A DNA stretch of 64,000 nucleotides, taken from positions 1 through 64,000 of the forward strand of contig CAMPDV010000894.1 in the NCBI GenBank assembly GCA_946699065.1, in the 5' to 3' direction. Below are positions 21,727-53,645 of the stretch, piece after piece. Source of the DNA: Loxodes magnus (Eukaryota; Ciliophora; Karyorelictea; Loxodida; Loxodidae). Positions within the stretch are counted from its first letter, which is position 1. Every line of letters begins with the position of its first letter. The position numbers and the translations under genes are program-made. The notes below the pieces were generated by a model that saw only the letters and a program-made list of their open reading frames with translations, was not told where the DNA came from and did no database searches.

Positions 21727-22700
21727 ATGGAAAACAAATAAAATTTACTAAATGCAATTTTTTGCGAAAACTCTTAAGATAACGAAACGGTTTCTTTGGA
21801 AGAATACCATTTCTTATATTTAAATATGAAATCTTACCAAATTTATGCTTCTAAAGACTTATTAATAAGATTAACTTGGATAAAAGTTAAGGTATTTTTT
21901 AATATTTTTAGACTAAGTCATCACTGGTCACTCCTCATATGTTTACTCGGTAGCCATATCAAATGACCTGAATTGAATTGTATCTAGTTCAGGATACCCT
22001 GAAAATTCTATAAAGATCTGGAAATTACAGACTGTTACCCTCCTAAGAACTTTATCGGGACATACCTCTTGAAATAGCTCGGTAGTTATCTCACCTGATT
22101 AGAAATGAATTATATCAGCATATGAAGATACAAAGATCAAGATCTGAAATTTCCAGACTGGTACCCTCCTAAGAACTTAGAAGGGACGCACTTCTATCAT
22201 TTGATCGGTAGTTATCTCCCTTGACTAGAAATGAATCATATGCAACTAATGATAAAACGATCAAGATCTGGGATTTACAGACTGGCCTGCTTATTCAAAC
22301 TTTTTCTGGTCACTCAAGTTATGTTTTATCGGTAATTTTATCTTTGGACAATAAGTATATAATATCGAGTTCTTCTGATAAATCAAGTAAGATATGAGAC
22401 TTCTCTACTGGTTAGCTAGTTCGTACTCTTCAAGGTCACACGAAAGGTGTATCAAGTATTCAGTTAAATTCTGATTCAAGTGCTATATTTTCTGGTTCTT
22501 ATGACCATTTAATCAAGATATGGGATTTTAATAGGGGTGTGTGTATATAGACTCTTTATGGGCATACATAACCAATTGAATCTATAGCATTGAGTAGTGA
22601 TAATAAATGGCTAGTATCTGGAACAGATGACAATACTGTGAGGAAGTGGAGGATTGCTAGTTAAGAGTTGAGGAATAAATTTATTGAAGACTAATTAAAT
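21727..22700 (+). pseudogene. WD40 repeat protein, copy 1 (one internal frameshift)
   Basis: Exon 1 (to 21891) and exon 2 (from 21912) flank a 20-nt GT-AG intron at the same position as in the copies at 42781 and 56927. Exon 2 encodes six WD repeats, with KIWK, KIWN, KIWD, KIWD, KIWD and RKWR at the blade ends. Several of these Trp codons are UGA, as is the Trp of LNWIVS. WD40 propellers are protein-binding scaffolds. The ATG at 21727 is out of frame with the rest because 4 bp are missing relative to the copy at 57097, and a further frameshift lies near 22232 in the third repeat. It is probably inactive, though its last three repeats are clean. Confidence 0.75.
21892..21911 (+). other. 20-nt spliceosomal intron (predicted)
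   Basis: The 20 bases start with GTATTT and end with TTTAG. Removing them joins the frame that matches exon 1 of the minus-strand copy to the first WD repeat. Introns at the homologous position occur at 42781-42800 (20 nt) and 56927-56948 (22 nt). Confidence 0.75.
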
Positions 22701-27730: not shown

Positions 27731-27959
27731 AGATAAAAAAGTAAAATAAGCTTTTGCAAATGCGATAATTATCTTAAAATATTTGGACTATAATTTTATA
27801 CAAAAAAACTATGGGGGAATAAGAACCTGAGCTGTTAATTTGAGGGGATTAAATTTTCAGGATTGAAATCTAAGAAACTAAAATTTATAAGAGATTAATT
27901 TAAGGATTACGAAGCTATCAAACTGCAATTTAAATGAAGTAAACTTAACTAATATGTAA

Positions 27960-28295
27960 TTGGAATTGCCTAGACATTCCGTTTCTCCAAATGGGAATTC
28001 TTATGCGATCTTGAATCTTGGATTTTTTCAAAACAAACAATTATTTTAATAGGTATTAATTTTAGAAAAGTGTAAGTTTCCTCAAGACTTAACATCATCA
28101 TCTGTATTAGTTCCTTATTATACGACATGTGAAGTAAGGAGATTTGAATCAAGAACCAGGAATCATAGAATAGGAGCAAACTGTCAGTCGAGGTTTAAAA
28201 CAAGCGATAACCTTGAGTAAGTTAAGTCTATCCTCTAGAGACTGTCGATTCTTATCTACAGTAGCTAGCTTATAGACCAAACTGACAGTAGCCAT
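27960..28295 (-). CDS. Small possible gene, unknown
   Basis: From ATG at 28293-28295 the minus strand reads VYKLATVDKNRQSLEDRLN and LKVIACFKPRL. A change of frame near 28180 then leads into a 69-residue stretch without any stop-type codon that ends at 27970 (LSLEETYTFLKLIPIK). G+C is higher than in the surroundings. It lies about 175 bp from element E copy 3. Confidence 0.4.
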
Positions 28296-30589: not shown

Positions 30590-31560
30590 AACTTGAGTTT
30601 CTCAACTGTTATTAAATAGTTAGTTTAATTATAATTAATTTAGTTACGAATTTTTATCAATTATTACCTATCTCAGGTTAATTTAAATAATTAGCTAAGC
30701 AATCTTTATGCTTTAGGATCCAAATTTTTGCTTGCTACTCTTCTTTATAATTTCTTTAGGTTTTATATTTTTATTTATGTATCTTTTATTTTAGTGTGTT
30801 ATTTCTTGTTACATATTTTACCACTTTTTTATATTCAAGCATAATTGTTTATTAACTTTATTTCTTTTTATGTTCTTCATTACTTAGTATTGTATCTAAT
30901 TTTTAGAAAGTCTTCACATCATTTATTGCCAATTTATTTAACTTTACTCGTAAAATTTTTTCTTTCGGTTAAGTAGGAATATTTTCTGGATAAGTGGCTT
31001 CTGATAATTCTAGGTACATAGTTGTTGTGCCATCAAGTTATATTGTTTCTTTTACTGTATGTAAAACTGTCTGCTTTATATTTCCGAAGACTTTTAACTT
31101 TTTTTATTTTGTAACTGAACTTTTGAAGTAGCGAATTAAGTAGTTATTATTTTTTAATATTAATTAATATTTATTTTCTTGCTAAAATATAAAAAGATTA
31201 ATATTATCATTTTCTATGCTAGAGAATTTATCAAATTATATTAATCAGATAAAAAAATAGAATAAATTAAATTCTTATTTTTCGTACTTAATCTATATGT
31301 TATCCAAATTCTATCTATCGGTACTGAAGAGTTCCATTAATACGGCACATTATTTTATTATGCCTGAGTTGTAAATTTTAAAATATCTCTTTATATAAAA
31401 TTGAGATAGATTATTCTTATTCTTAGATGAAGTTTTCTACTTTATATTTTTAAAGTTACTTATTTTATAAAATTTTATTTTTTGTTAATTTTATTAGTTC
31501 GACATATTTTCCTAGCTTTTTTTCACCCTTAGATATCGCTCATAAAAACTTGATATCGAT
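30590..31560 (-). mobile_element. LINE-C ORF1 C-terminal part, copy 2
   Basis: Homologous to 10290-11300 and 44310-46210 on the same strand. It lies between RING-kelch copy 2 and the LINE-C reverse transcriptase, all in one direction. Compared with copy 3 it lacks the 45262-45985 segment carrying the zinc knuckle. Confidence 0.6.
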
Positions 31561-32151
31561 GTTGTTTTATTCTTACTGGTCTTTCATATTAATCTCGAAA
31601 AGTTATTATGATTGAGTTTTTATCAAGAGTATAGGAGTTGTAATGGCATGATTTTATTATTAGCTATAGAAGGACAATTTTAATTATATATTGTAGTTAG
31701 TTTAAATGATTGAAGGAAATAATGTATTTTAAATTTGAAGATGTTGAATTGATGATAGTAGTGATGATTTAATTAGTATTTAGATATAGGTATAGCTTAA
31801 GTATTATTTGATTATAGTTTTGATTTGATTAGATATATAATAGAGTAATCTAAATAGTACTTGTATAATTTGATTATAAGGATGTATTTAATGACAGTTT
31901 TTTTGACTGTGTTGAATATGTTTTGGCATATTATAAGCTGTATATTTGTATCTGAATAATGATAATATTTGAATAATAGATTTTTAAATATGTTTAGGTA
32001 AAATCTTATCTTTATTTATTTCAGACGCTTTAAATATTTTAATAAGTAGTAATATATTTAACTAATTATAGATCTTTAAACTAATTCTTTACATATGAGA
32101 CTATATTTATTATAAATACTATTAATAATAAAGATATTATTATTATGTTTA

Positions 32152-33546
32152 TCAGTTATGACTTCTAATACTTCTATAACTCAATTTTTCTAAATCAATC
32201 CTCATTATTGAAACTCTTTCCTATTCGTAAGCAAAAGCATATCCATAGTTATTTCTTATTTTCATCTCCGTTAAAGCATAGACATCTTTAAAAATTTAGC
32301 TTTATTGCCATTATTCTTTGCTTATTTTATATATTCTTCATGAATACTCTTTCGTAAATGCATTTTTCATACCTCCAAATATGACAAAAGGCTCTAAACA
32401 AATTATAGGATAAACAACAGCTTCAGGAAGATTCAAATTTTACTTACTTCATCTATCATTCTATATGTTATATTTTCATATATCTTTAAAAGCTTATGCT
32501 TTCTAATTTATCCCTCCAAAAGAATAAATATTTTATTCATCTTTATCTACTACTAAAGTTTAACCTGTTATTTAGAATGGAAATTAAGAGCAGTTTTATC
32601 ACTTACTTTAGTTTTCCATCTTTAACTTTTCTACTGATTATAAAACCTTATTATTATCAGTACCTCCTCCAATAACATAAAGAAATTTTTAGGCAGCTGC
32701 TATTCCAAAGCCACCTCTTCCCTCATTTAGATCACTAAGTTTTATTCTATTACCTTCAAAATCAAATTATCAAGTTTCTTTTATTTCTTTCTTTTAATTT
32801 ATGCTAATTCCTCCAATTAAATATAACTTATTTTAATATTCTATACTATTACTATAGTCTGGAATTATAATTTAAACTTAGACTTATCGTAATTACTCTG
32901 TTTAAATATTAAATAAACTTAATTTTTAAATAAAGTAATTAAAAAAGTGAATATAGTTAGATTATATAAAGTGTTAGGTTAGTTTATGTTAATTAGTCTA
33001 AATAATATTTGGTTACTTAGTATTGTGTTATAGTTTGTATCTTATTAGATTGTAAGTTAATTTAGACTTTAGTATTGTAGGTGGTTATGAGTTATATTAG
33101 AGTATAGTTGGTTTTAGTGATTAGTAGAATTAGATAATATTTGAGTGTTATTTTTGGTAGATAAATGTTGGTTAATGATTGATGATGATATTAGTTAGTG
33201 GTATTATGAGAGTATTACTAATGTTTGATTATTTGGTTGTAATGGTTTTAGATTTTTCCATAATTTACCTCCTTATCTCTTTTAATTTCTATCTAGCATC
33301 TTAAATCTTTTATATGTATTATTAGTTTTAAAATATCATTCTTATTAAATCACTTTCTTAAGGTAAATCATCAAATCTAAAATGGAATCCTTTTTAACAA
33401 ATAGGACATTACATTATGCCTTATAATCAGTACTCAGTATTCAAACACAAACCACAGTAAATATGTCCACGAGGTAAGACAGTTGGAAGAGCATTAGTTA
33501 AGTTGTAATCTTCTAAGCAGATTAAGCATTTTGGTAACGCTTACAT
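32152..33546 (-). CDS. RING finger-kelch repeat protein, copy 2
   Basis: ATG at 33544-33546, UGA-UAA end at 32149-32154, 464 residues. It has the same architecture as copy 1: RING at residues 7 to about 52, a Lys/Gln/Thr-rich linker, and kelch turns LYLIGG, LYVIGGG, IYSFGG and FVIFGG. In-frame UGA codons lie at kelch Trp positions: KETW (32770-32772), SKW (32599-32601), DIWKYN (32476-32478), DRWSK (32449-32451) and YSW (32338-32340). The third RING Cys (PCGH in the other copies) is Arg here, from CGT, so one zinc site is probably damaged. The frame is otherwise intact. It is likely a ubiquitin ligase paralogue that may have lost activity. Confidence 0.85.
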
Positions 33547-33739
33547 TTTTATTATTATTTAGACTACAAAAGCTATAAAGCTAATTTATAACAGTTACCA
33601 TCAAAAATTAGTATATAAATATCTATTATTACATTATTACTTTATTTACTTAAATACTACAATATTAAACTATTATATCAAGTAGCTATCCTATATTCTG
33701 CATGCCGCCAATCTTAGATCGAGATTGGTTATTAAATTT

Positions 33740-36370
33740 AGCAAAGGCATGAAAGAGCTTTACAATTTAATCAGATCTTCTATATTATTTTTAAGAAAAA
33801 AGACTCCGTCGCAAAATATTATAACTACTAGGAGGAATGAACAAAAACAATGTGAAAGAAATCTTAAAACTAAGCAACAGATCAAAAAAGTAGGTAATTT
33901 ATAACATCATATCAGATCTCAGCTCTGTGCAAATCTTTTAATGAAAGAAGAAAAGAACGAGTAAAGGCCTTAAAATGAGGAGGAGAATATGCAGCTCAAA
34001 ACTGCTAAAAGAGTAGAGTTACTTATTTAAATCAATTTTTAGAAGAAAATTACTACAACCAAAGACTCAGTCCAGCAGATATGCAAGAAAATGAAATAAT
34101 TCAAGCATTTCTCAGATACCTGAGATAAGATATGGAAAAAATATTTAAAGTATGGAAATCTTTCAGACAGGAATAATTATTATATTATTCAAAAATAAGG
34201 GAAGACTCACTCAATTCGCAAACAATTAACATGGAAATTTAGAAATTTTGTAATACTAACAGAGCAAAGAAACATAGAGGAATTCTACAGCATTAAGAAC
34301 TACCTGATTCATTGAATATTTAGCATGTATTCAAGTTTTAATTAGGTAGAAACCAATTTGGAGCAGTACAGAAAATAGTATGTACAGAGATCGGAAACGT
34401 AAAAAGGAGACAATGGGAAAATGAAAAATTATTTAGAATTGAAGGAGATCAAAGATGCAGAAAGTATACTAGATAAGTTAGACGAAAGGTAAAGCACTTA
34501 CTTGAGGCAGTCTGGAAATCCCATACACGTATCGTTGTATCGCCAACCATCAATTTTAAAATGTATGAACTGTAACCAAAAAGGGCTCAGCTCAAATTTT
34601 CTCTTAAGAAAAAAAAAATATAAAGGAAGCAATTAAAATGCTAAGGAAGTAAAAATCAGGTTGATACATTCAGAAATCAGGAATAAACAGGAATAAAACG
34701 CCTTACTATAAAGAGAAACAGATAGCGAAAGAAAAGAAAGTGAAGAAAACTGAATAAGATTAACCTTCAAATAAAATACCACTTTTATTTCTAGAAAAAG
34801 CTAAAAGTTTAAGCCATACTAAAGTTTCTTTAAAAGCGATCGATTTTAATAGATACTTAACTACAAAATTAAATAAATAAAACTAAGGCGAAACTATCAA
34901 TGTCAAAAAAAACAGAAAGTAAAATAGGAAAAATACCAAAAAAACTGAAACATATATAAAGCAGCGACAGGAAGTAAGTATGCATAAATACAACACTTTC
35001 TCAAAAAAGATAGAAAAAAATACATAGGATGATAGTATCGAGTAAAAAATGAAGACACAAGTACAGAAAAATAATAAACATTAGAACAATTTGGTTTTCA
35101 TGCTATTAAAGAAGAGGAACTAGGAATCCAGGATAGGAGGATCAAGAAAAATTGGAAGTACAAGGAAATACTAATATAATAAAATAGAAAAAATTAAACA
35201 TAGGCACAACAAATGCCAGAGGAATAAAATAAAACAAGAATTGAACAAGTTTATGTGTGAAAAAGATAGAAATTATGGCAATTTAAGAAATATTTGCGGA
35301 TCAAATTGATGAAGATCGTTATATATACGGATTCAAAGCAATAATAAAATTGAGCACAAAACACTGCAAAGGAGTAGCATTTTATATAAAAGATGGAATT
35401 ACCATCAGACCAAAGTATTTAATATAACGGATCTCAATCAAGCAGAATTATTTTAGAGAGGAAGATTTATATGTTTAACACTTGATGATGGGTAGCATTG
35501 ATAAACGTATATAGCACTACAACATCGAACTCTGATTAAAAAATACCCTTTTATGAAAATCTATAATAATTCATAATAACAGCAGAGAATTATAAATTTT
35601 AGGGAATTTTAATGCGCATATTCCTCAATTTTTATCGTATGAGCAGAATAATGCAGGCTAATACTTATTTAACTTGATGAAAGATTATCTTTTAGAATTT
35701 AAAGATCCAAATCAAGATCCAACCTTCATCATAACATAAAGGAACGGATAATCCAAAATAGAATACTTCTTAACGGATCAATATATCACGCCTAGCATTA
35801 TTAGCACAATATTTTATCAATAGAGACCAATAGGAGATCATTACCAGACAAATAAAGATAAAAATTTCGGAAGAATTTCGAAAAAACCAATAAATTAAAG
35901 GGATAAACTTTCAAAAATTAAAGCAATAAAAGGTTCTAGAGAGATTCAAAGAATGATTGAAGAAAACAGATATTTGAAACTTTAGATAGCGAAGCATAAT
36001 ATGAAAAATGATTAGAATACATCCAAGAAGCGACCAAAGCGATATGTGGATTGTAACAAATTAAATGAGAAAATATTATATACAGCAGAAATAATAAAAC
36101 TAAGAAAAAATTTCAATAGAAGGTAAAATAAGTAAATATCTAATATGATAAAGATGCTAATAAATTGATAATTATATTAAAATGAGATAAGAAGCAAGGA
36201 GAAAATTTAGATTGCATCAAAAAAAAGATAGAAAAAATCAATTAAATATATTCCTAGATGAAATTAATTAAAGAAACTTAAACAACACTTGAAAAGGAAT
36301 ATAAAGACGATTAAAGTAGAGAAAATATGCACCATGGATATTAATAAAAGAAAAGAATATACAGAATTTT
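33740..36370 (+). mobile_element. LINE-A copy 2
   Basis: This is the longest LINE-A copy on the left side. The ORF1-like part spans 33740-35150 and contains a possible knuckle remnant CMNCNQKGLSS near 34560. The AP-endonuclease domain runs from about 35195 to 35720 with TTNARGIK, AIQEIFADQ, KGVAFYIKDG, LINVYSTT and GNFNAH (35602-35619), and the post-endonuclease basic linker ends at about 36350. Several frame changes and no reverse transcriptase are present, so it is dead. Its 5' end faces the RING-kelch start. Confidence 0.8.
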
Positions 36371-36379
36371 AAGGAAAGT

Positions 36380-37330
36380 AGAGAGGAAAGTTTATCTGCT
36401 ATGTAAAAGCTTTAAATCTCTTATTATCTCAAATAGAGTGTTACTAATAATGAAAGATAGAGATTAGGATTTAAAGGATGAGCTCTAAGACTATTTCCAT
36501 TCCTTGTCTTCTCTTATCTGTTTTTTTATTTTAAATTACTAAAAGCTCTCAAATATCTTTCTTACTACTCTATCTCAATTAAGAAAATACAATAGTTAAA
36601 TATCTCTTCTAACTTATCCTCTTGATATATGGAGTATGCATTATAAAATGAAGCATTAATTCTAGGTTAGAAAGTACTTGGTAATAAATTTGATAGGTTA
36701 GTCTAATTGGATATTTGTAATGTTGAGGTTATTAAATACTTAGCTTCTAAAATCTGTAAGATATAGTTAAAGCATTTAAGGATTTATTATAATTCTAAGC
36801 ATATGGTACTATTTTTAAATAATCTTGCTCTTCTCTTTATCAGTTTCTATGTACATGTTTGCAAACTAAGTTTGTATAAGTAAATAACAAATTAGAGGGA
36901 AATTTCTTGCATTAATGGTATAATTTTAAAAGTAACTATTAATTATATCTTAACTAATAAATAGCCTATTATAGTTAATTAAGCTACTTTTATTTCCTTC
37001 AGTTTAAATAGTAGTTATCTATGTGAATAATATTAAACTTATTTTTACTAGATTCAAATAAAATCTCAATCTGCTAAGTCTTAATTATGTCAACAACTGT
37101 TTCATCAAGAGCTCAAAGGCCTAACAAGTTAGAATGCCAATCAATTGTAAGAGATGTTTGAAAGATATTTATAAGCTTTAATAAAAGTTAAAATGTAGAA
37201 ACCATAGCATCATTACACTAAAGCCTAATAATTGCAAAGCGTTCCTTCATAAAATAACCAGAGAATATTAAAAACTATTTAGTATAAGTAAAGATAATTA
37301 TCAGTCTCTAACTTTATATTGCAATTAGGA
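36380..37330 (-). CDS. LRR-like protein, copy 1
   Basis: On the minus strand one frame reads about 310 residues with regular Leu spacing (LRLSRLRFYLNLVKISLILF, KHLLQLIGILTCQAFELL), then VFNNLNITNIQLD, then a charged Ser/Gln-rich tail (KIKKQIREDKEWKQSQSSS) near 36520. I infer a leucine-rich-repeat type solenoid, usually a protein-binding surface. The segment 36662-37321 shows no difference from 51267-51923 by eye, far better conserved than its flanks, which supports function or recent conversion. A plus-strand reading is also Leu-rich, so the strand is not certain. Confidence 0.45.
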
Positions 37331-37444
37331 TAAGGGATATGTGAAGTATCAAAATAAGATTATCATTAAAATCATTAAAGTGATAGATAAAAAGGGATAA
37401 TTCCTATTACTTAAGTGCAGAACTATTAAATTAATTTCAACTAA

Positions 37445-37598
37445 AAGAGTTTTTGGACCGGAAACTCTTTCCGATTGCACGACCCGACACTCTCTTTTTA
37501 TGGAATAACGAGGATATCCTGTTGTGCTCCAGACACAGCTGCTAAGGAGCTCCATTGTTATGAGCAGTTAGGCTTCAAGCCCCTACCAAGAGCGGATA
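37445..37598 (-). ncRNA. Element E half copy, joined to a 28S fragment
   Basis: The reverse complement matches about 28590-28745, roughly 92% by eye. It stops at the text aagagcg and 28S-like sequence follows immediately, giving a chimeric junction. The same junction is present at about 52192 in the duplicate. Confidence 0.65.
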
Positions 37599-38372
37599 CA
37601 GAAACTTTCTAGCAATGTAACTGGATGGGAGAAACCGCCAGGTAGGGAGTTTGACTGGGGCGGCACATCTGTTAAAAGATAACACAGGTGTCCTACGGCC
37701 AGCTCAATGGGACAGAAACCGCTCACAAACCAAAAGGAGAAAAGCTGGCTTCATTCAACCTCTCAGTTTCAGAATGAACTGGGAAGCCATGGGCTATCGA
37801 TCCTTTGCCTTTTACGAGTTTTAAGCAAGAGGTGTCAGAAAAATTACCACAGGGATAACTGGCCTGGGGCAACCAAGCGTTCATAGCGCCGTTGCCTTTT
37901 GATTCTTCGATGTCGGTTCTTACTATCATTGTGAAGCTGAATTCACCAAGTGTCGTATTGTTCATCCGTCAAAAGAGAACATGAGCTGAGTTTAGACCAT
38001 AGTGAGCCAGTTTAATTTTACTGTATTGATTACTGCATCGCCATAATAATCCAACTCAGTACGAGAGGAACCGTTGGTCCAGATCACTGGTATTGCCATT
38101 GGTTGAACAGCCCGTTTGATTACGCTATCATCTGCATAGATTATGACTGAACATCTCTAAGTCAGAATCTAATCTGGGAGCGATGCCTTCTATCTACTTA
38201 TGAAAATAATACTTTTTATATCCCCAAGCTCTCCTCATTTCTGTTAACAGAATAGATGAATAATAACATACAAGCAGAAAGGATAGATCCTTTGTAGACC
38301 AATAAATATTTGACCTGGGGTTGTACACATAAGAGTAAGCTTGCCTTATGATCTGCTAAGACTTTTCCATGG
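37598..38372 (+). rRNA. 28S rRNA 3' fragment (domains V-VI), copy 1
   Basis: Diagnostic large-subunit text is present in order: gtttgactggggcggcac, the peptidyl-transferase-loop segment accacagggataactggc, gcgttcatagc, ttcttcgatgtcggt, the sarcin-ricin loop agtacgagaggaacc (about 38059), and the 3' end near gatctgctaagact. Everything 5' of domain V is absent, as are 5.8S and 18S. Substitutions against copy 2 fall inside conserved helices, so at least one copy is a pseudogene. A truncated rRNA with an intact 3' end inserted in a repeat fits a reverse-transcribed rRNA pseudogene. Confidence 0.85.
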
Positions 38373-39045
38373 TTACCTGATCTATCTCTCTACAGGACTT
38401 TTACTCTCCTTATTTGCTTTACTTACTTTTAGTAAGATACTTTAGTTATTTTAGTTACTCTAGCACCTTTAGTTAATATACTTGTATCAGCTGGTTCTAC
38501 TGGGGAATAAATGAGTTATAAGAAAATGATAGGTAAAAATTAGGAATTTGATTGTTTGATCTAGAAATGTATATAATATGCATAAAAGTGATAGACTAAA
38601 ATTAAAAGCTATGATTGAATAAACTAGAGACAGGTAGGATTGTATATTGAAAATAAGATATTAAACTAAGGATAATATTTGAATATTTGATTAGTATTAA
38701 CAACTTAAATTATTGCTTTTTATATTTAAATAAAAAAATATTTATATACAATAATTTATTAAATAAAATATAGCTTTACAATTATAAATTTATTCTACAT
38801 TTTCTTATTATTAATACTTTTAATGTATATAGTAAACATCCATATACTTGCTAACATTATTAAGCTTAAATACAAATTTATATTCATTTTTATTATTTTA
38901 CAACTGGCAAATTTAATTATCATCATTTTGCAAATATTAACCTTGCTTTTATAAAAATGGCTGTATTTAATGAAAAGGAAATTTAAATCAATATTTTTAA
39001 AATAAATCCTTTATAATAATCATATTTTTCACTTCGTTCCTACCT
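38373..39045 (-). other. Stretch between 28S fragment and family F gene
   Basis: The minus strand has a protein-like segment at about 38380-38520 (VEPADTSILTKGARVTKITK), and 38490-39030 is almost identical to the duplicate. The rest is AT-rich. It may be the end of another gene or the far 3' part of family F; I cannot define it. Confidence 0.3.
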
Positions 39046-39049
39046 TAAT

Positions 39050-41400
39050 ATTTACTCCTTTGTTGCTCCATCTACTCTAGGCTTCGTATTTCGAGGATTG
39101 ATTGAACAAATTAGAATTTCTTTACTTCTTCTTATATATGTTCCGAACGATATTGAATAAATGGAGATCATCATATTTCAATACTTATCTTTCAGTTTTT
39201 TTTTCTTTCTTTCAGTCTTCTCAATAGAGTTCTATCGTATTGCAAATTCTACATTCTTAATCTTTTTATGGTTCAAATTTGTTTATATTTTGATTGTTGA
39301 CTGTTTAATTTCTATTAATATAGCATCGTTTAGAATAGTCTAACTTACTATGCTTTTCTATTAGATTCTTTAGATTTTTTTCTTAATTTTCTAAATGGAT
39401 AATTTAATTTTTGTATAGGCAAAATTATCGTCTTACTGTTCCTCAATTATCATTAAATCTGTTTATCTATAGAAATATTCCTGTCTTCGCTTATCTGTCC
39501 ACTATGTGGATTTCATTATCGTCCTCGTGCTGTATGAGATCCTTTTTTATTGTGTTTACTTTTCATGGTCCCAGCAAGAGCATACATTTATTTTTCCAGA
39601 TCCTAAATTTAGTCGATAAGGGCTAAAATGTTTTAGCGATTTCTCTAAGGATTTGGGTGTTGTTTAAGTTTGGTGTAAAAATGTTTAATTTAGGTAATGA
39701 ATTAAGGAATTGAGTGTAGATTTGTGTATGTTAATTTTGGATGGTTATGTGTTTGTAGGTTTGTGTGTACTATTGTTAGTTTTTGAATATGAGATGAGTA
39801 ATTTTGGTAATTGAATGTAGTTTTGAATTTGAGATAGTTATGTTAAAATAGTATTGTTTAAGGTATTTATAAAGTATTAAAGGTATAATCTTAAATGCAA
39901 TATATTGATTATTAATTAATAAATAAAGATTTAACTAAATTTAATAGAAAAACGTACTATAGGAAACTTATAGCTATTAAATTACTATTTTGCAAATTTA
40001 AAAAACTGTCAATCAGCAAAAATGATGAAAATATTAAAATTATAATTTCATCAATTTGAAAGACTATTTATTTAATAAATTACAAAATGATCAGATTAAT
40101 AGTCTGCTAATCTTAAAAAATATGATGGAAACATAAAAAATGCAGTAATAAAAGTTTAGTAAGATAAAAGTAAAATAATTTAAGGTATTATAAGGTAATT
40201 AAGAACTTAAAATTATTTAGACAAATTTAGAATATTTGTTTCTAAATACATTCAATATCACCATTATTTTTCACTAGAAAATTACATAGAAATAGGTAAA
40301 AATGGAATAAAAATTATAAAATTAAAATAAAAAATATAAAGAAAAAATTAATTAATATGATTATTTTAATAACTAATAATGCTTATAGATTCCCTATATT
40401 TTAGTTACCAATTCAATTTTACACTATAAAAACAATAAAATAACACTAATCAATTTCATTAACAACAAAAAGGAGTTATATATCTAATTAATTAAGCAAT
40501 TCATTTAATGCAGCTATATCATTCTCTTCATTTTTAAAATAAGCAACTTAATACAAATTATTTAAATCAAACTAAATCCAATTATTTATATCTAGTTCGG
40601 AACTAACTAACTAAATCAAATCTATTTCAAGCCAAAAGTCATCATAGTTTTCAAATCTATTTGTTTTGCATATTCTTATTAACTACCTTTATAAATTAAA
40701 TAGTAGAGCTAAATATTTATATGCAGACTCAGATTACAGATATGAACGATAAGGATGCAACAACGAACCAATAAATAATAACAAACAAGCTAATAGTTTA
40801 TCATTATTTAAGCTTTAAGGCTTATAATCTAACAATACTTATTGTATATCTATTTCATTAATTTTTCAAACGAACTTTAATAAATCTCAGATTATATCAC
40901 AGTACTGTTATTACCCTTATAACAATATAGAATTACATCTCTAATCAAATTTGTCTATTATATCTTGAATGCTAATCCTATACTTTCTCTTCAACTTTAG
41001 AACTGAGATTACATAATCTTCTCCTTTTTATTTTTACTCTAATACTATTACAAGCCAATATATTATAGGCTCTTAATAATTAATATCCTTAACTCATAAA
41101 TAAATACTTAAAGATTGATTTTAGTTATACTTAAGTATGGCTCTAAATAGACTTTTAATACCTTCTTTTGATTATAGAAGCTGCTTTTCTTATTTAAAAT
41201 TCCTTTTATACTGCTAATAGCTTTTCTCTTATTTCTTTATTACTAAATAGCTCTTAAAATATGAAATATTCAACCTTACGAATTTTTATTTCTTAGTAAC
41301 TTTTAAATGCTTTTACCGAAGACAAAGTTTTAAGAATAGGTTCAAAAATTTCTATATGTATTATTAATTTCATTTTAAATAGGAAGGAACAATCCGCCAT
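39050..41400 (-). CDS. Family F protein, copy 1: long, unknown function
   Basis: ATG at 41398-41400 opens MADCSFLFKMKL and a basic helical region (EKLLAVQKEFQIRKAASIIK). A frame change near 41110, perhaps a short intron, leads into one frame that runs unbroken for over 500 codons from about 40980 to 39050. This frame contains very few UGA codons, each at a plausible Trp (SELDINNWIQFDLNNL, QLDIQLLFVVNEIDQ). A hydrophobic Leu/Ile/Phe-rich middle is followed by Thr/His/Asn-rich and charged segments (ALIDQIQDLEKQMYALAG, HTARGRQWNPHSGQ). Total is about 780 residues. The middle (39620-40640) is nearly identical to the duplicate. No domain was recognised. Confidence 0.6.
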
Positions 41401-41700
41401 CTGATTTTATTTAAACTCTGTTATCAGGAAGTACCCCATGGGCGAAGAACAGAGCAAGAATCTTGATAGGAGCCAAGAGAAGACAAGAGGTATCAAGTAG
41501 CGTTAATGATGAAAGATTCCAGATACTAAGGTTTCTTATGGAGCATTCAGATAATGGCCTATAGAAGACAAGATTCACAAATGAATGCTAGCACTATGGA
41601 AGACTTCAGAAAATAATTTTTAATTTTAAAAATCTTTATTAAAGAGCTGAACATAATCGAGGAGCTGCTTCAAATCTTATCTATTTATTATTGATTTTAA
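41401..41700. other. GC-richer upstream region with hairpin
   Basis: Just upstream of the family F start is a perfect 7-bp stem, ctctgtt...aacagag (about 41415-41453), with an inner CCC-ATG-GGG type hairpin. It is kept in the duplicate at about 56040. The rest includes a gagctg motif shared with the hairpin repeat at 26690. It could be a promoter, a 5' leader or a small structured RNA. Confidence 0.35.
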
Positions 41701-42659
41701 AGATATTTATTTCTTCTAAATTTAAATAAAAACTAAAATTAGACTATAAATTTGTAAATAGTAATTTGAAGCTTCTTAATAGAAGTAGTTAACATAGTAA
41801 AGCTTATTTAATAAAGGTTTTAAATTTGTAAACTAGAATTAGAAATAATGTAAGCATTTCACTGTGTGATACTCTTATTTATTAGGTTTCTTTTATTTTT
41901 TAATTAAATTAGTATAAGGAAATTAGCTTAGGTTAAATATGAATTATAAGTAATAAAGTACTTTTGTAAATATAAAAGAAGAGATTAGTTAAATAAAAAG
42001 TTTAAATGAATTAGTAATAAGAAAGTGGATAATTAAATAATAATTTCTAAAATAAACAATTTAATACTTTAAACTATACATTTTACTTACTATAGTTACC
42101 ATTTTAACTAATTTTCTTAAAATAATCAAATATTATATCACTAATTTATTATTAAATGCAAAGGAATAACTATTCTTAATATCACCTATTTTCAATACAT
42201 TAGAATCTAATATTTTACTTATTATTCAATGTAATTATAAAAGAAATCTAGCCTTTTTTATTAAAGAATCTAGATTTAAAACTCAAATAAGCTATAATCA
42301 ATAAAAGCAAAGCAAAGTTACTATAATAAGAATATAAATTCTTGCATATTACTTTTGATAAAATAAACTAAAAGCAAAAGAAATAAAATAAAATAGTAAA
42401 ACTTACTTATGCTTAACTATTTTAAATTATATCAATCTAATCGAAAGGAAAAAATAAATTTTTTAAATTATTTTTTAATATTAAAGTAACTTTATCCAAG
42501 ATTCTAATAAATAATTTAAATATTCAATTGTGTTTTATTTAAAGTAATAAAAATTATTTTCATAAGATGAATTATTTTATTATTAAATTATTAAAATAAT
42601 TTATAAAATAAAAATTTAAAAATAAAGAAACATAATTTGTTAAAATTATTTTTTAAGAA

Positions 42660-43290
42660 AAATTTAAGACAAAGAAGCATATCCCTAGGCAGAATATATT
42701 TTCTTCTTTTTAAATATGAAAACTGCCAAACTTGAGCTTTTTAAAAGTTGAAAATAAAATTATCTACGACTAATCTAAAAGTAATTCTTTAATATTTTAG
42801 ACTAAATTTTGACCGGACATTCGTTTGCAGTTAACTCGGTAGTAATAGCAAAAGATCAGAAATTATCAATTTCAGTATCTGACGATGAAACGATAAAAAT
42901 CTGAGATTTCCAGACTGGAAACTGTATGAGAACTTTAATTGACCATTCAGATTATGTATAATCTATAGTTCTATCAAATGATAATAATTTTATAGTAACT
43001 GTATCTGGTGATAAATCATTTAAGATAGAGAATTTCTAGACAGGATAATGTATAAGAACAATATCAAAAAATTGTTATGTGAAGTGTTAATAATTAAGGA
43101 TAATAAGTTCATAACATCAGGAAATCAAGGTAAACTTATTAAGAAATGGAATTTCTCATAGGAGTGAGTGTATGTACTTTATAAGATCATACAGATAAAG
43201 TAAATATTTGGCTTTGAGTAGAAATAATAAGTGGTTAAAATCTAAAGCTAATGACAAGACAGTTAGAAAGTAGAAGATTGCTAACTGAGC
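42660..43290 (+). pseudogene. WD40 repeat protein, copy 2, decayed
   Basis: Exon-1-like sequence ends at 42780, a 20-nt intron follows (42781-42800), then WD repeats with KIWDFQTG (Trp is UGA) and FKIENFQTG, where the Trp codon became Glu. Later repeats are shortened and frameshifted, and the last piece (NNKWLKSK, VRK) matches the end of copy 1. Fewer blades remain than in copy 1. Confidence 0.75.
42781..42800 (+). other. 20-nt intron in decayed WD40 copy
   Basis: Starts GTAATT and ends TTTAG at the position homologous to the introns at 21892 and 56927. The splice signals survive although the gene is decayed. Confidence 0.65.
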
Positions 43291-44309: not shown

Positions 44310-46205
44310 ATAATTAAAAGTAGTTTCATCTATTAGTTATGGAAGTGAGCTAGTTACTTATAGAAACTTATTTTTTTCAACAAGTTCTAGTAATTCCATT
44401 TTTTCTCTCATGGTGTTAAACTTTGGCTTTTCCATTGATCTTAGGTAGCTTTAATAATTTTATCTCAGTATTCATTCAGTTGGATGATCTTTTATAATTC
44501 TTTCAATTATTGCCTATCTAGTGTATCATTTAAATAATTAGTTAAACAAATTTTTACTTTAGAATTCAAATTTTTGCTTGCTACTCGTCTTTATAATTTC
44601 TTTAGCATTTCTTTAGGTTTTCAACTTTTATTTATGTATCTTTTATTCTAGTGTGCTATTTCTTGTTACATATTTTAATGCTTTTTTTATAATTCAGCAC
44701 AATTGATTACTAATTTTATTGCTTTTTTATCTTCTACAACATTTAGTGCTGTCCAATTTTAGACAGTTTACTCATCATCATATATTGCCGAATGGCTTAA
44801 CTTTACATGTAATTTTTTTTCATCTAGTCAAATAGGAATATTTTCTGATAAGTGATTTCTGATAATTCTAGATACGTAATAGTTCTACATAAAATCATGT
44901 TGCTCCCTTTACTGAATGTAAAACTGTTTTTTTGTATTTTCGAAGGCTTTTAACTGTTTTTCTGTTGGCACTAAATTTTTTAAAATACTTAAAAGTAGTG
45001 AATTAAGTAGCTATTATTATTGTAGTATTCATTAATATTTATCTTCTTGATAAAAATATCAAAAGATTAATGTTTTTATCTTAGAGAATTTATTAAGATA
45101 TTCTTAATCAGAGAAAGCAGTTAGAATAAGTCCAGTTGGTATTATTTGTACTTAATCTATAGTTATCCAAAATCTCTCTATATGTGTATGAATAATTCCA
45201 TTAATGAGGCATATTATTTTATTTTTGCTTTGCTTGAGTTGTAATTTTGAAATGTCTCCCTATATGAATTAATTAATTAATTTACGTGATTTCACCTTTA
45301 TTTGGTTAATCACAAATCAAAAGTTTAATACTAAAAAGAGAAACTTCATTTTTGCTTGGATCTTGTTTATCATAAGCTCTAAGGATTTTTAATTTCTTTT
45401 TTCTGAAAGTTTCCGATAGGTTGATTCCCATTCATTCCTTATTAAATTCGTTAATTGCATGCTATATGTTTGGAGCTTCTTTGTTTAGCTGGAGTATTTT
45501 TTCCTGTAGAGTTTAACTTCTTGATTACAATAGATCCTGAAAATATTTCCCATTAGTTTTCTACTATTTTCTTTTTTTCATTAGAATTGGAAGCAGCTTC
45601 TAACTTTGTGTTCTGGTTACTTGCAGTATTAACATCTCATTATTTTCCAATAGGGAATATAATTTTTTGTAGGCTATTGCTCTGCATCCATTGTATAATT
45701 CATAGACATCTTTTACAGAAATAAGCTTTCAGTTAACTCCGAGAATTAGTTCAATTTTGTTTCTAATTATTCTATTCTGATATTTCCTAGCTTTTAATTT
45801 TTAATTTTTTTCTTATGAATTAATCATAAGACGTTCAATTTTTTTTACGAGTTCTTGTACAGTTCTTAAAATTTTAAAATTTTTTATTTGCATAACTTGG
45901 AGTTCTTAAGTATTTTTTTTAGTTGTAACTTGACTAAGATGAATCCTTTTGAGAAGAGACTTTTACAAATAATTTTCATTTTTTATATAAAATTGAGATA
46001 GATTATTCTTATCTTTTAGATGAAGTTTTCTACTTTATTTACTTTAAAAAATTATTCATTTAAGAAAATTTTATTTTCTGCTAATTTTATTAATTCATCC
46101 CATATTCCTTACTTTTTTCATCATAAAAATCCCTCCTAAAAGCTTTATCTGGATGTTGTTTAAATCATACTGGCTTATCATATTAATCTCAAAAAGTTAA
46201 TATGT
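44310..46205 (-). mobile_element. LINE-C ORF1, fullest copy
   Basis: From the N-terminal side: a Lys/Leu coiled coil (about 45900-45700), a CCHC knuckle CQYCKQPEHKVRSC (about 45600-45640), and a helical domain at 45000-44340 reading LVPTEKQLKAFENTKKQ, YYVSRIIRNHLSENIPIWLD and IIQLNEYWDKIIKATQDQWK, with four or more UGA-Trp codons. The helical domain recurs in the copies at 10290 and 30590. ORF1 proteins of LINEs bind element RNA. Frame changes between the modules are present. Confidence 0.7.
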
Positions 46206-46737
46206 TTGAGTTTTTATCAAGAATATATGAGTTATAATAGCTTGATTTTATTATTGGCTATGGGACATTTTTAAATATATATAGTAGTTAGTTTAAATGA
46301 TTAAAGGAAATAATGTATTTTAGACTTGAAGATGATGACTTGATGAAAATAGTTATGAAATAATTATTATTTAGATATAGGTATAGCTTAATTATTATTT
46401 GATTAAAGTTTTGATTTTATTAGATATATAATGGAGTAATCTAAGTAGTATTTTTATAATTTGAATATAAGTATGTATTTAATGGTAGTTTTTTTGACTG
46501 TGTTTAATATAAGTATGTTATAAGCTGCCTGCTTTATCTGAATAATGGTAATATTTGAATAATAGATTTTTAAAGATTTTTAGATAAAATTTGATTCTTT
46601 ATTTATTTCAGACACTTTAAATATTTAATAAGTAGTAACATATTTAACTAATTATAGATCTTTAAACTACTTCTTTACATATTAAATTATATTTATTATA
46701 AATACTATTAATAATATAGATATTAAAATTATGTTTA

Positions 46738-48132
46738 TCAGTTATGACTTCTAATACTTCTATAACTCAATTTTTCTAAATCAATTCTCATTATTGAAAC
46801 TCTTTCCTATTCTAAAGCAAAAACATATCCATAGTTGTTTCTTATTTTCATCTCAGTTAAAGCCACAACATTTTTAAAAATTTAGCTTTATTATCATTAT
46901 TCTTTGCTTCTTTTATATATTCTTCTTGAATATTCTTTCGTAAATGCATTTTTTATACCTCCACATATGACAAAAGGCTCTAAAGAAACTATAGGCTTAA
47001 GAACAGCTTCAGGAAGAATCAAATCTAACTTACTCCATCTATCATTCTATATGTTATATTTTCATATATCTTTTAAAGTTTATGCTTTCTAATTTATCCC
47101 TCCAAAAGAATAAATATTTTATTCATCTTTATCTACTACTAAAGTTGAACCAAATATTTAAAATGAAAATTAAGAGCAGTTTTATCATTTACTTTAGTTT
47201 CCCATCTTTAACTTTTCTACTGATTATAAAACCTTATTATTATCAGTTAATCCTCCAACCACATAAACATATTTTTAGGCAGCTGCTATTCCAAAGCCAC
47301 TTCTTCCCTCATTTAGATCATTAAGTTTTATTCTATTACCTTCATAATCAAACTACCAAGTTTCTTTTATTCCTTTATTTTAATTTTAGTTATATCCTCC
47401 AATTAAATATAACTTATTCTAATATTCTATACTTTTACTAGAGTCTGGAATTATAATTTAAACTTAGACTTATCGTAATTACTCTGTTTAAATATTAAAT
47501 AAACTTAATTTTTAAATAAAGTAATTAAAAAAGTGAATATAGTTAGATTATATAAAGTGCTAGGTTAGTTTATGTTAATTAGTCTAAATAATATTTGGTT
47601 ACTTAGTATTGTGTTATAGTTTGTATCTTATTAGATTGTAAGTTAATTTAGACTTTAGTATTGTAGGTGGTTATGAGTTATATTAGAGTATAGTTGGTTT
47701 TAGTGATTAGTAGAATTAGATAATATTTGAGTGTTATTTTTGGTAGATAAATGTTGGTTAATGATTGATGATGATATTAGTTAGTGGTATTATGAGAGTA
47801 TTACTAATGTTTGATTATTTGGTTGTAATGGTTTTAGATTTTTCCATAATTTACCTCCTTATCTCTTTTAATTTCTATCTAGCATCTTAAATCTTTTATA
47901 TGTATTATTAGTTTTAAAATATCATTCTTATTAAATCACTTTCTTAAGGTAAATCATCAAATCTAAAATGGAATCCTTTTTAACAAATAGGACATTACAT
48001 TATGCCTTATAATCAGTACTCAGTATTCAAACACAAACCACAGTAAATATGTCCACAAGGTAAGACAGTTGGAAGAGCATTAGTTAAGTTGTAATCTTCT
48101 AAGCAGATTAAGCATTTTGGTAACGCTTACAT
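46738..48132 (-). CDS. RING finger-kelch repeat protein, copy 3
   Basis: ATG at 48130-48132 and UGA at 46738-46740 give the same 464-residue length as copies 1 and 2 and an unbroken frame. All eight RING ligands are present (CLIC, PCGH, CGLC, CPIC). The RING and linker differ from copies 1 and 2 at only a few bases over about 600 bp, while the kelch half has many more substitutions. It is probably a working E3-type protein. LINE-A starts about 180 bp from its start, in the opposite direction. Confidence 0.85.
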
Positions 48133-48309
48133 TTTTATTATTATTTAGACTACAAAAGCTATAAAGGCAATTTATAACAGTTACCATCAAAAATACACTC
48201 AATAATATCAAATATTACATTATTACTTTATTTACTTAAATACTACAATATTAAGCTATTATATCAAGTAGCAATAATATATCCCATATGCCGCCAATCT
48301 TAGATCGAG

Positions 48310-50995
48310 ATTGGTTATTAAATTTAGCAAAGGCATGAAAGAGCTTTACAATTTAATCAGATCTTCTATATTATTTTTAAGAAAAAAGACTCTGTCGCAA
48401 AATATTATAACTACTAGGAGGAATGAACAAAAACAATGTGAAAGAAATCTTAAAACTAAGCAACAGATCAAAAAAGTAGGTAATTTAGAACATCAAATCA
48501 GACCATAGCTCTGTACAATCTTTTAATGGAAAAAAATGGAAATGGTAAAGGCCATAAAATGATGACAAGAATATGCACTAAAAACTGTTAAAAGGGTAGG
48601 AAGTACCTATTACAATAGATTTTTAGAAGAAAATTACTACAACCAAAGACTCAGTCCAGCAGAAAGGCAAGAAAATGGAATAGTTCAAGCATTTCTCAGA
48701 TATCTGAAATAAGAATATGATAAAAATATTGAGAGTATGAAAATCCTTCAGACAGGAACAATCATTATATGATTCAAAAATAAGGGAAGATTCACTCAAT
48801 TTACAAACAATTAACATGGAAATTTAGAAATTTTGTAATACTAACAGAGCAAAGAAACATAGAGGAATTCTACAACTTTAAGAACTACCTGATTCATTGA
48901 ACATTTAGCATTATTCAAGTTTTAGCCAGATAGAAACCAATTTGGAGCAGTACAGAAAATAGTATGTACAGAGATCGGAACCGTAAAAGGTACAAAGTGA
49001 GACAATGGGAAAATGAAAATCCATTTAGAATTGAAGGAGATCAAAGATGCAGAAAGTATACTAGATAAGTTGGACGAAAGGTAAAACACTTACTTGAGTC
49101 AGTGTGGAAATCCCATACTTGTATCGTTGTATCGCCAACCATCAATTTTAAAATGTATGAGTTGTAACCAAAAAGGGCTCAGCTCAATTTTTTTCTTAAG
49201 AAAAAAAATCTATAAAGGAAGCAATTAAAATGCTAAGGAAGTAAAAATCAGGTTGATGCATTCGGAAATCAGGAATAAAATGCTTTGCTATAAAGAGAAA
49301 TAGATAAAGAAGGAAAAGAAAGTGAAGAAAACTGAAGAAGATTAACCTTCAAATAAAATACCACTTTTTATTTCTGACAAGTTTAAGCCAAACTAAAGTG
49401 TTTTTAAAAGCGATCGATTTCAATAGATACTTAACTACAAAATTAAATAAATAAAAACTGAGACGAAACTATCAATGTTATAAAAATCAGAAAGTAAAAT
49501 AGGAAATATGTCAAAAAAACTGAAACATATAGAAAGCAGCGACAGGAAGGAAGCATGCATAAATAAAACACTGTCTCAAAAAAGATAGAAAAATATATAT
49601 AATGGCAAGGAAGATATTATCAAGTAAAAAAAATGAAGACATAAGTACAGAAAAATAATAAACATTAGAATGATTTGGTTTTCACGCTATTAAAGAAGAG
49701 GTACTAAAAATACAGAGTAGGAGGATTAATAAAAAAAGGAAGTACAAGGAAATACTAATAAATAAAATAGACATAATTAAACATAGGCACAACAAATGTC
49801 AAAGGAATAAATTAAAACAAAATAATTAAATAAGTTTATGTGTGAAAAGAAGATAGAAATTATTGCAATTTAAGAAATATTTGCGGATCAAACTGAAGAA
49901 ATGCCTTAAATATACGGATTAAGAGCAATTATAAAATTGAGCACAAAACACTGCAAAGGAGTATCATTTTATATAAAAGATGGAATTACCAGCAGAACCA
50001 AGGTATTAGATATAGCGAATCTCAATCAAGCAGAATTATTTTAGAGGAAGATTAAATGGTTTAACACTTGATGATCAGTTAGCATTGATAAACATATATA
50101 GCACTACAACATCCTACTCTGATTAACTAATACTCTTTTTGAAAGTCTATAATAATACATAATAGCAACAAACGCAAAGGATTATAAATTTTAATTTTAG
50201 GGAATTTTAATGCGCATATTCATCAATTTTTATCGTATGAGTAGAATAATGCAGGCTAATACTTATTTAACTTGATGAAATATTATCTTTAGAATGTAAA
50301 GATCCAAATCAAGATATAACCTTCATCAACATAAGGGAAAGAAAAATTCAAAATAGAATACTTCTTAACGGATTAATACATTACGCCTAGCATTATCAGC
50401 ACAATGGTTTATCAATAAAGAACAATAGAAGATTATTAGACAGGTAAAATAAAGATAAAAGTTGCATAAGAATATCGAAAAAGCCCATAAATTAAAAGGA
50501 TAAACTTTCATAAATTAAAGCAATAAAAGGATCAAGAGAAATTCAAAGAATGATTCGAGAAAAAGAGATATTAGTGAATTTAAAATTTAGATAGCGAAGC
50601 ATACTATGAAAAATAATCAGAATACGTTCAAGAAGTGACCAAAGCGATATGTGGATTTGTAACAAATTAAATGAGAAAATAAGAATATACAGCAGAAATA
50701 ATAAAACTAAGAAAAAATTTCCAATAGAAGGCGAAATAAGTAAAGATATCTATTAGGCATGCTAAGAAATTAATAATTATATTAAAATGAGATAAGAAGC
50801 AAGGAGAAAATTTAGATTGCATCAAAAAAAGATAGGAAAAATAAATTAAATATTTTATTAGATGAAATTAATTAAAGAAACTTAAACAACACTTGAAAAG
50901 AATATAAAGTCGATTAAAGTAGAGAAAATATGCACCATGGATATTAATAAACGAAAAGAATATGCAGAATTTTAAGGAAAGTAGAGAGCAAAGTT
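48310..50995 (+). mobile_element. LINE-A copy 3
   Basis: The ORF1-like N-terminus opens at ATG 48311, and its first 65 codons have no stop-type codon. A basic protein follows with YYNRFLEENYYNQRLSPAER, KIVCTEIGTVKGTKWDNGK and a knuckle remnant CMSCNQKG near 49155. The AP-endonuclease domain spans about 49800-50330 (KIEIIAIQEIF, KGVSFYIKDG, GNFNAHIHQF from about 50200). The post-endonuclease linker ends near 50950. No reverse transcriptase follows; the LRR-like gene does. It is the best LINE-A N-terminal half in the window. Confidence 0.8.
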
Positions 50996-51935
50996 TATCT
51001 GTTATGTAAAAGCATTAAATCTCTTATTATCTCAAATAAAATGCTACTAATAAACAAAGGTAGATATTAGGATTTAAAGGCTGAGCTCTAAGAATATTTC
51101 CATTCCTTGTCTCCTCTTATCTGTTTTTTTATTTTAAATTACTAAAAGCTCTCAAATATCTTTCTTACTCCTATATCTCAATTAAGAAAATAAAATAATT
51201 AAATATCTCTTCTAACTTATCCTCTTGATATATGGAGTATAAATTATAAAATGAAGCATGAATTCTAGGTTAGAAAGTACTTGGTAATAAATTTGATAGG
51301 TTAGTCTAATTGGATATTTGTAATGTTGAGGTTATTAAATACTTAGCTTCTAAAATCTGTAAGATATAGTTAAAGCATTTAAGGATTTATTATAATTCTA
51401 AGCATATGGTACTATTTTTAAATAATCTTGCTCTTCTCTTTATCAGTTTCTATGTACATGTTTGCAAACTAAGTTTGTATAAGTAAATAACAAATTAGAG
51501 GGAAATTTCTTGCATTAATGGTATAATTTTAAAAGTAACTATTAATTATATCTTAACTAATAAATAGCCTATTATAGTTAATTAAGCTACTTTTATTTCC
51601 TTCAGTTTAAATAGTAGTTATCTATGTGAATAATATTAAACTTATTTTTACTAGATTCAAATAAAATCTCAATCTGCTAAGTCTTAATTATGTCAACAAC
51701 TGTTTCATCAAGAGCTCAAAGGCCTAACAAGTTAGAATGCCAATCAATTGTAAGAGATGTTTGAAAGATATTTATAAGCTTTAATAAAAGTTAAAATGTA
51801 GAAACCATAGCATCATTACACTAAAGCCTAATAATTGCAAAGCGTTCCTTCATAAAATAACCAGAGAATATTAAAAACTATTTAGTATAAGTAAAGATAA
51901 TTATCAGTCTCTAACTTTATATTGTATTTAGGATA
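50990..51935 (-). CDS. LRR-like protein, copy 2
   Basis: It duplicates 36380-37330. The segment 51267-51923 is identical by eye to 36662-37321, while the C-terminal part shows substitutions. See copy 1 for the reading and the uncertainty about strand. Confidence 0.45.
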
Positions 51936-52029
51936 AGGGATATGTGAAGTATCTCAATAAGATTATCATTAAAATCATTAAAGTGATAGATAAAAAGGGA
52001 TAATTCCTATTATGTAAGTGCAGAACTAT

Positions 52030-52192
52030 TAAATTAATTTCAACTAAAAGAGTTTTTGGACCGCAAACTCTTTCCGATTGCACGACCCGACACTCTCTTT
52101 TTATGGAATAACGGGGATATCCTGTTGTGCTCCAGGCACAGCTACTAGGGAGCTCCATCGTTATGAGCAATTAGGCTTAAAGCCTCTACCAA
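52030..52192 (-). ncRNA. Element E half copy, joined to 28S fragment (right copy)
   Basis: Same chimeric junction as at 37598. Substitutions and a small deletion separate it from the left copy. Confidence 0.6.
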
Positions 52193-52965
52193 GAGATACA
52201 GAAACTTTCTAGCAATGTAACTGGATGGGAGAAACTGCCAGGTATGAAGTTTGACTGGGGCGGCACATCTGTTAAAAGATAACATAGGTGTCCTACGGCT
52301 AGCTCAGAGCGGACAGAAACCGCTCACAAATCAAAAGGGGAAAAGCTGGCTTCATTCAACCTCTCAGTGTCAGGATGAACTGGGAAACTATGGCCTATCG
52401 ATCCTTTGCCTTTTACGAGTTTTAAGCCAGAGGTGTCAGAAAAATTACCACAGGAATAACTGGCTTATGGCAGCAAAGCGTTCATAGCGACGTTGCCTTT
52501 TGATTCTTCGATATCAGTTCTTCCTATAATTGTGAAGCTGAATTCACCAAGAGGCGTATTGTTCATCCTTCAAAAGAGAACGTGAGCTGAGTTTAGACCG
52601 TAGTGAGCCAGTTTAAATTTACTGTATTGATCACTGCATCGCCATAATAATAAAACTCAGTACGAGAGGAACCGTTGGTCCAGATCTCTGGTATCGCCAT
52701 TGGTTGAGCAGCCTTTTGGTTACGCTACCATCTGCATAGATTATGACTGAACGTCTCTAAATCAGAATCTAATCTGGGGTGATGCCTTCTATCTACTTAT
52801 GAAAACAATATTTTTTATATCTCCAAGTTCTCCTAATTTCTGTTAACAGAATAGACGAGTAATAAAATGCAAGCAGAAAGCATAGATCCTTTGTAGACCA
52901 ATAAATATTGGCCTGGAGTTATAGATATAAGAGTAAGCTTGCCTTATGATCTGCTAAGACTTTTT
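52193..52965 (+). rRNA. 28S rRNA 3' fragment (domains V-VI), copy 2
   Basis: It carries the same diagnostic segments as copy 1, including the sarcin-ricin loop agtacgagaggaacc (about 52657), and the same 5' truncation. At several sites this copy is closer to the general eukaryotic consensus (for example gctaccatctg), at others further from it, so both copies have drifted. Confidence 0.85.
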
Positions 52966-53645
52966 CATGGTCACCCTATCTATCTCTTCTTTATCTCTCT
53001 ACAGGGCTTTTACTCTCCTTATTTGCTTTACTTACTTTTAGTAAGATACTTTAGTTATTTTAGTTACTCTAGCACCTTTAGTTCATATACTTGTATCAGC
53101 TGGTTCTGCTGGAGAATAAATGAGTTATAAGAAAATGATAGGTAAAAATTAGGAATTTGATTGTTTGATCTAGAAATGTATATAATATGCATAAAAGTGA
53201 TAGACTAAAATTAAAAGCTATGATTGAATAAACTAGAGACAGGTAGGATTGTATATTGAAAATAAGATATTAAACTAAGGATAATATTTGAATATTTGAT
53301 TAGTATTAACAACTTAAATTATTGCTTTTTATATTTAAATAAAAAAATATTTATATACAATAATTTATTAAATAAAATATAGCTTTACAATTATAAATTT
53401 ATTCTACATTTTCTTATTATTAATACTTTTAATGTATATAGTAAACATCCATATACTTGCTAACATTATTAAGCTTAAATACAAATTTATATTCATTTTT
53501 ATTATTTTACAACTGCCAAATTTAATTATCATCATTTTGCAAATATTAACCTTGTTTTTATAAAAATGGCTGTATTTAATGAAAAGGAAATTTAAATCAA
53601 TATTTTTAAAATAAATCCTTTATAATAATCATATTTTTCACTTCG
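52966..53645. other. Stretch between 28S fragment and family F copy 2
   Basis: Duplicate of 38373-39045, mostly AT-rich, with a nearly identical block after about 53100. No gene can be defined with confidence. Confidence 0.3.

Follow-up and report, generated by a model that had tools for sequence, protein, structure and literature searches.

The minus-strand reading frame at positions 32152–33546 of a 64,000-nucleotide stretch of the Loxodes magnus genome (referred to here as the window) raises the question of how UAA, UAG, and UGA are read in this ciliate. The frame, designated RING-kelch copy 2, comprises 464 codons followed by UGA and contains six internal UGA and 50 UAR codons (45 UAA and 5 UAG). 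The sequence-only reading had named six in-frame UGAs and dozens of UAA/UAG codons, and our recount located the six UGAs at the places it gave. From this frame it had concluded that all three stop codons were sense codons, with UAR encoding Gln and UGA encoding Trp. A code with these meanings is already known for this lineage and is not new: in translation table 27, as described for L. magnus, UAR encodes Gln, and UGA serves both as a Trp codon and as the sole stop (PMC11441545). The length of the open frame was rejected as evidence: when no codon terminates in every context, all frames are open, and so open length says nothing about coding.

Two further copies of equal length, without indels, were found on the minus strand at 11851–13245 (copy 1) and 46738–48132 (copy 3), with coordinates derived by hand. 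All three copies sit within larger repeats. One of these, a 10.5-kb repeat with 93% identity on the plus strand (31390–41814 and 45982–56448), had several substitution-free 300-base blocks beside blocks with dozens of substitutions, as gene conversion would leave. Two fragments of the 3′ part of the eukaryotic large-subunit rRNA were also detected on the plus strand, at 37502–38383 and 52105–52981 (approximately 480–510 bits); many pairs were broken in the one alignment viewed, and the fragments probably represent pseudo-rDNA that forms part of the 10.5-kb repeat.

The product of copy 2, translated with table 27, contained a RING domain at residues 6–52 and kelch repeats at about residues 208–421 (Pfam). 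The comparison of the three copies revealed six columns at which all of them had Trp, encoded by UGA or UGG, namely codons 40, 259, 316, 357, 366, and 413. UGA occupied 5/6, 5/6, and 4/6 of these columns in copies 1, 2, and 3, or 14 of the 18 cells. In the kelch part, UGA was present in all three copies at codons 316 (32599–32601, minus strand, as for all codons of copy 2 below) and 357 (32476–32478), and in copies 1 and 2, with UGG in copy 3, at codons 259 (32770–32772) and 366 (32449–32451). Thus, four of the five kelch UGAs that had been assigned to Trp positions held their place; the fifth, codon 403 (32338–32340), was private to copy 2; copies 1 and 3 both carry AGA (Arg) there, so that this is not a conserved Trp. 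The UGA of the RING (codon 40, 33427–33429) was likewise present as claimed and common to all three copies.

Copy 1 had eight UGAs, three of which were private and lay at non-Trp columns (codons 254, 295, and 396, where the other copies hold Glu/Gly, Gly/Leu, and Ala). In copy 3, four UGAs and two UGGs were all at the six shared Trp columns; its UGA at codon 413, where the other two copies have UGG, was the fifth private UGA of the set. Thus, the UGAs shared between copies were all at Trp, while four of the five private ones, in copies 1 and 2, were at non-Trp columns. This pattern fits an ancestor that, while still a working gene, would have used UGA for Trp, with later private changes placing UGA elsewhere by drift.

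The meaning of UGA was then scored against Pfam models, with the UGAs of copy 2 read as each of the 20 amino acids. Trp was the best of the 20 readings in all eight kelch-type models, by a margin of 4.7–10.2 bits, although the models overlap and do not amount to eight independent tests. The three RING models favored Trp weakly or gave a tie with the next residue (26.5 vs. 25.8, 24.9 vs. 24.9, and 24.4 vs. 22.3 bits).

The synonymous shares of the codon differences between copies were 9/49, 16/54, and 15/51, with 0.22 expected in the absence of selection; the substitutions thus gave no sign of purifying selection. In copy 2, one RING ligand had been lost: Arg was found at 33469–33471 in place of the CGH-motif Cys that copies 1 and 3 retain. 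Between the RING and the kelch part, there was a G-poor tract (32815–33257, minus strand); codons 96–224 had nearly equal base composition at all three codon positions, and hence no codon-position signal, and approximately 3% G, with zero or one G per 30 bases in codons 101–210. The earlier statement that the frame matched its families end to end was therefore not confirmed. The near-neutral synonymous shares, the lost Cys, and the middle tract suggested that the RING-kelch copies derive from a once-working gene and are now probably fading duplicates. Copy 2 is a poor witness for the code, since it looks like a decaying duplicate.

The alternative, in which the genes still work and selection on their kelch part is relaxed or diversifying, is less likely. 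It draws on the complete absence of indels in the frame, compared with 58 (at 522 substitutions) and 39 (at 363 substitutions) elsewhere in the repeats (P 0.004 and 0.005, from two comparisons that both involve copy 2 and hence share data), and on the retention of the RING Cys in copies 1 and 3. However, the synonymous shares lie close to the neutral value, the RING Cys is lost in copy 2, the middle tract is without codon-position signal, and the adjacent coding remnants are broken. Searches for relatives added little: a search with the whole RING-kelch protein gave 3751 candidates, none at E 0.001, and a search with the kelch part returned one protein among 340 candidates. DNA-pattern and relative searches of viral and prokaryote collections confirmed none, with the qualification that UAR and UGA codons may escape such patterns; 6 and 31 stretches matching a peptide pattern failed tblastn.

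Among the other elements that had been cited as independent support, the UGA at 16471, a putative Trp codon of the LINE motif, was present; no reverse-transcriptase match was obtained in six frames around the LINE remnants (Pfam, E 0.1), with one chance-level match overall. Three frames of the putative CCHC region near 1066 gave no zinc-knuckle match. A weak pentapeptide-repeat remnant (22.4 bits, below the cut-off) was observed at 27834–27962 on the plus strand, read across two UGAs.

The WD40 repeats provided a separate test of UGA. A profile of 41 columns was built from 120 fetched proteins, and all six frames were aligned to it with stop codons masked. WD40 repeats were located in the window at 21926–22664 (plus strand, with a frame change near 22240 and five UGAs, all at Trp-favored columns), at 42815–43060 (plus strand, where a single UGA occupies the WD Trp column and a neighboring repeat has GAG in that column), and at 56518–56892 (minus strand, three repeats, with one UGA at a Trp-favored column). 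All seven aligned UGAs were in the five Trp-favored columns, which make up 52 of the 416 cells (hypergeometric probability 3.3e-7), although two of them (56844 and 21974) are likely one site in related copies. The log-odds score for these UGAs was 18.9 for Trp and 2.6 for Tyr. As a control, the profile method named 36 of the 53 sense codons in the window correctly, which makes it fair but not sharp.

The test was extended to other loci of the genome assembly (705,730,643 bases in 7843 contigs). The first WD40 loci (L001–L008) overlap and are near-copies; hence, distinct repeats were counted, and a set thinned to 33 repeats at an 80% codon identity cut was used in addition. In the thinned set, 17/18 UGAs were in Trp-favored columns, with 39 of the 58 sense codons named correctly in the control. 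Outside the window, 381 distinct WD40 repeats contained 226 UGAs, 223 of which were in Trp-favored columns; the arrays are near-copies, so these UGAs are not independent events, and about 222 of the 223 occupied just two columns that vary within arrays that are otherwise uniform. The sequence-only reading had proposed that Trp columns enriched for UGA would support its code, and such enrichment was found both in the window and beyond it. In the UGG-dominated columns of the arrays, UGU (17) was more common than UGA (8), which counts against the reading.

In loci L019–L025, L027, and L029 (contigs C9, C1832, C620, C272, C119, and C6957), nearly identical WD40 repeats form large tandem arrays with a GC content of approximately 45%; a single frame can hold as many as 80 repeats per 10 kb. 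Their variable columns are few, mainly 4, 5, 7, 23, and 25, and UGA was found in 145 of 367 distinct-repeat cells at column 5 and in 77 of 373 at column 7. Variable WD40 arrays are known in fungal recognition proteins, and the pattern observed here recalls them.

These data bear on a different explanation, in which UGA does nothing but terminate (table 6, with only UAR recoded as Gln) and the genes are dead, their UGG codons having drifted to UGA. Several signs of decay speak for it: the frame change in the WD40 gene, the lost RING Cys, the neutral synonymous ratios, the private UGAs at mostly non-Trp columns, and a codon exchange analysis of nine pairs of diverged repeats, which gave no codon signal in any frame. 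This explanation was explored with a decay model, in which the substitution pattern of the window's own repeats was applied to UGG. At none of the seven ages tried did UGA exceed 11.5% of the sites that had been UGG, and new UGAs arose from other codons in similar or larger numbers. In contrast, 7 of the 15 WD40 Trp cells in the window were UGA, and no other cell was (P 7e-4 and 0.06). Under table 6, no UGA is expected inside coding frames, but UGA occurred at Trp columns in intact-looking repeats, and the 223 of 226 UGAs in the distinct repeats elsewhere and a tRNA-Trp(CCA) with a shortened anticodon stem (see below) also oppose it. Decay of UGG does not reproduce UGA at Trp columns; therefore, UGA as a stop combined with decay was rejected, and we regard it as extremely unlikely. 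The reading of UGA as Trp inside genes is thus supported at the sequence level by the kelch models, the WD40 repeats both within the window and beyond it, and the tRNA.

A decoder for internal UGA was sought among the tRNA genes. ARAGORN identified eight tRNA-Trp(CCA) genes in locus L031 and none in L030. In all eight genes, which are identical, A27 is opposite C43, which leaves an anticodon stem of 4 bp instead of 5 bp; the Glu and Lys tRNA genes on this contig have 5-bp stems. A 4-bp-stem tRNA-Trp(CCA) has been reported in Loxodes, and in Blastocrithidia and Condylostoma tRNAs of this type raised UGA reading in reporters (PMC13092985). Internal UGA in L. magnus would therefore likely be read, on this published precedent, by the tRNA-Trp(CCA) with the 4-bp anticodon stem that the eight genes encode. 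The tRNA-Trp(CCA) pattern had at least 127 matches in the genome; arrays beyond L031 are known solely from the 30-base pattern match. Tandem matches were observed, among the matches listed, at C67:482324–491202 and C148:155465–169179; their spacing was approximately 190 or 241 bases, and the matched 30 bases were identical among the matches listed.

The search for other decoders was less productive. One loop-and-arm pattern for tRNA-Trp(UCA) gave seven matches, compared with two for the reversed-pattern control, and ARAGORN called no tRNA at any of the three UCA-pattern loci on which it was run. At four loci matching the CUA pattern, which cannot separate CUA from UCU, ARAGORN called one tRNA-Arg(UCU) and nothing at the other three. 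A tRNA family search scored 63 hits, and ARAGORN found two tRNAs in the window and loci L009–L029 combined, both in L012.

The meaning of UAA and UAG was addressed with the same profiles. UAA and UAG are sense codons, as indicated by ten UAR codons inside the strong kinase match of a kinase-WD40 gene in the same genome (locus L026). Which residue they specify is less sharply defined by the scores. With the main kelch model, UAR scored 70.2 as Gln, 68.1 as Lys, 67.0 as Asn, 42.5 as Tyr, and 37.4 as Leu (ten residues besides Gln were tried). Gln was the best reading in two of the eight kelch models, with Ser, Lys, Asp, or Asn leading in the rest, and in one of the three RING models; in the kinase models, for which nine residues were tried in addition to Gln, the lead of Lys over Gln was 0.5 and 1.5 bits. 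The thinned WD40 repeats gave UAG its highest score as Gln (7.3, followed by Lys with 5.8), and UAA as Asn (2.8, followed by Lys with 2.1 and Gln with 1.9). In CAG-dominated array columns, 11 of the 15 single-step changes were to UAG. Hence, the earlier claim of UAR as Gln was borne out as to sense, but the scores leave Gln level with Lys; UAR is likely Gln, and this assignment rests mainly on the published Loxodes code (PMC11441545).

The claim that all three stop codons are sense codons stood for UGA at Trp columns and for UAR, but it omitted termination at UGA. UGA retains a terminator role as well, as published and with one likely case here. In the L026 gene, a UGA directly follows the last WD40 repeat, at the point where the GC content falls from 37% to approximately 20%, and this final UGA is likely the stop. 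The same gene has an internal UGA at a Trp-favored column, and putative GT-AG introns, 17 or 20 nt long, would join its two frames; one UAG in a position where the sister repeats have UGG counts against the overall reading. In RING-kelch copy 2, UGA codon 465 (32152–32154) would probably act as the stop as well: the preceding 22 codons contain no UAR or UGA, with a chance of approximately 0.05 (calculated by hand for a single frame). In L. magnus, UGA and UAA were reported to be depleted for approximately 20 codons upstream of the stop UGA (PMC11441545). Thus, a UGA near the end of the message would likely be read as a stop.

Comparison with known codes showed that the UGAs at Trp columns, the sense UAR that is likely Gln, and the likely terminal UGA stop are shared with table 27 as described for L. 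magnus (PMC11441545) and Parduczia sp. (PMC4967479). With L. magnus, the 4-bp-stem tRNA-Trp(CCA) and the LINE-rich genome are shared in addition; its macronuclear long-read assembly was reported as 706 Mbp, rich in LINEs and tandem repeats, and with an intron length mode of 17 nt (PMC11441545), and the genome studied here is LINE-rich and tandem-repeat-rich in the same way. Equal codon meanings would also be expected if the DNA came from another lineage, such as a heterotrich of the Condylostoma type (table 28), another karyorelict, or an Amoebophrya-like parasite, and the tRNA-Trp is similar where known (PMC4967479, PMC6394959, PMC12005148, PMC13092985). In Condylostoma magnum, all three stops are likewise also sense codons with equal meanings (PMC4967479), but UAA and UAG also terminate there. 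Amoebophrya sp. ex Karlodinium veneficum likely reads UAR as Gln and UGA as Trp and has a 4-bp-stem tRNA-Trp(CCA) (PMC6394959, PMC12005148); however, it is a dinoflagellate, and its dynein genes strongly favor UGG over UGA (PMC6394959). The abundance of LINEs and tandem repeats, as in the published L. magnus genome, and the predicted introns of 17–20 nt, compared with 15–16 nt in heterotrichs (PMC11441545), make such an origin quite improbable. The combined reading, in which L. magnus uses table 27 (UAR as Gln and UGA as Trp), likely decodes internal UGA with a 4-bp-stem tRNA-Trp(CCA), likely stops at UGA near the message end, and carries RING-kelch copies that are probably fading duplicates, is one that we hold with high confidence.

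The level of UGA usage differs from that of related codes and to that extent counts against the reading. UGA made up 14 of the 18 Trp cells in the kelch copies and 7 of the 15 in the WD40 repeats of the window. These shares of Trp codons stand far above the 0.04–0.12% reported for related codes, including 0.12% in Parduczia sp. (PMC4967479), although the latter are shares of all codons. Relaxed selection together with AT drift, which would be silent at Trp under table 27, may suffice to explain the high share in the decayed copies. In the better-kept L026 gene, only 1 of the 18 Trp codons was UGA. A more far-reaching idea is that AT-rich, repeat-borne families of Loxodes use UGA as the main Trp codon, in a nearly completed switch, and that well-kept genes use mostly UGG, so that two regimes coexist in one genome; we offer it tentatively and consider it unlikely.

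A code without a dedicated stop codon matters, but it has already been published for this lineage. The practical lesson of this locus is that, without an unconditional stop codon, coding can be judged only by comparing columns with protein profiles. In addition, the contrast in UGA usage between the fading copies and the better-kept L026 gene bears on the course of codon capture.
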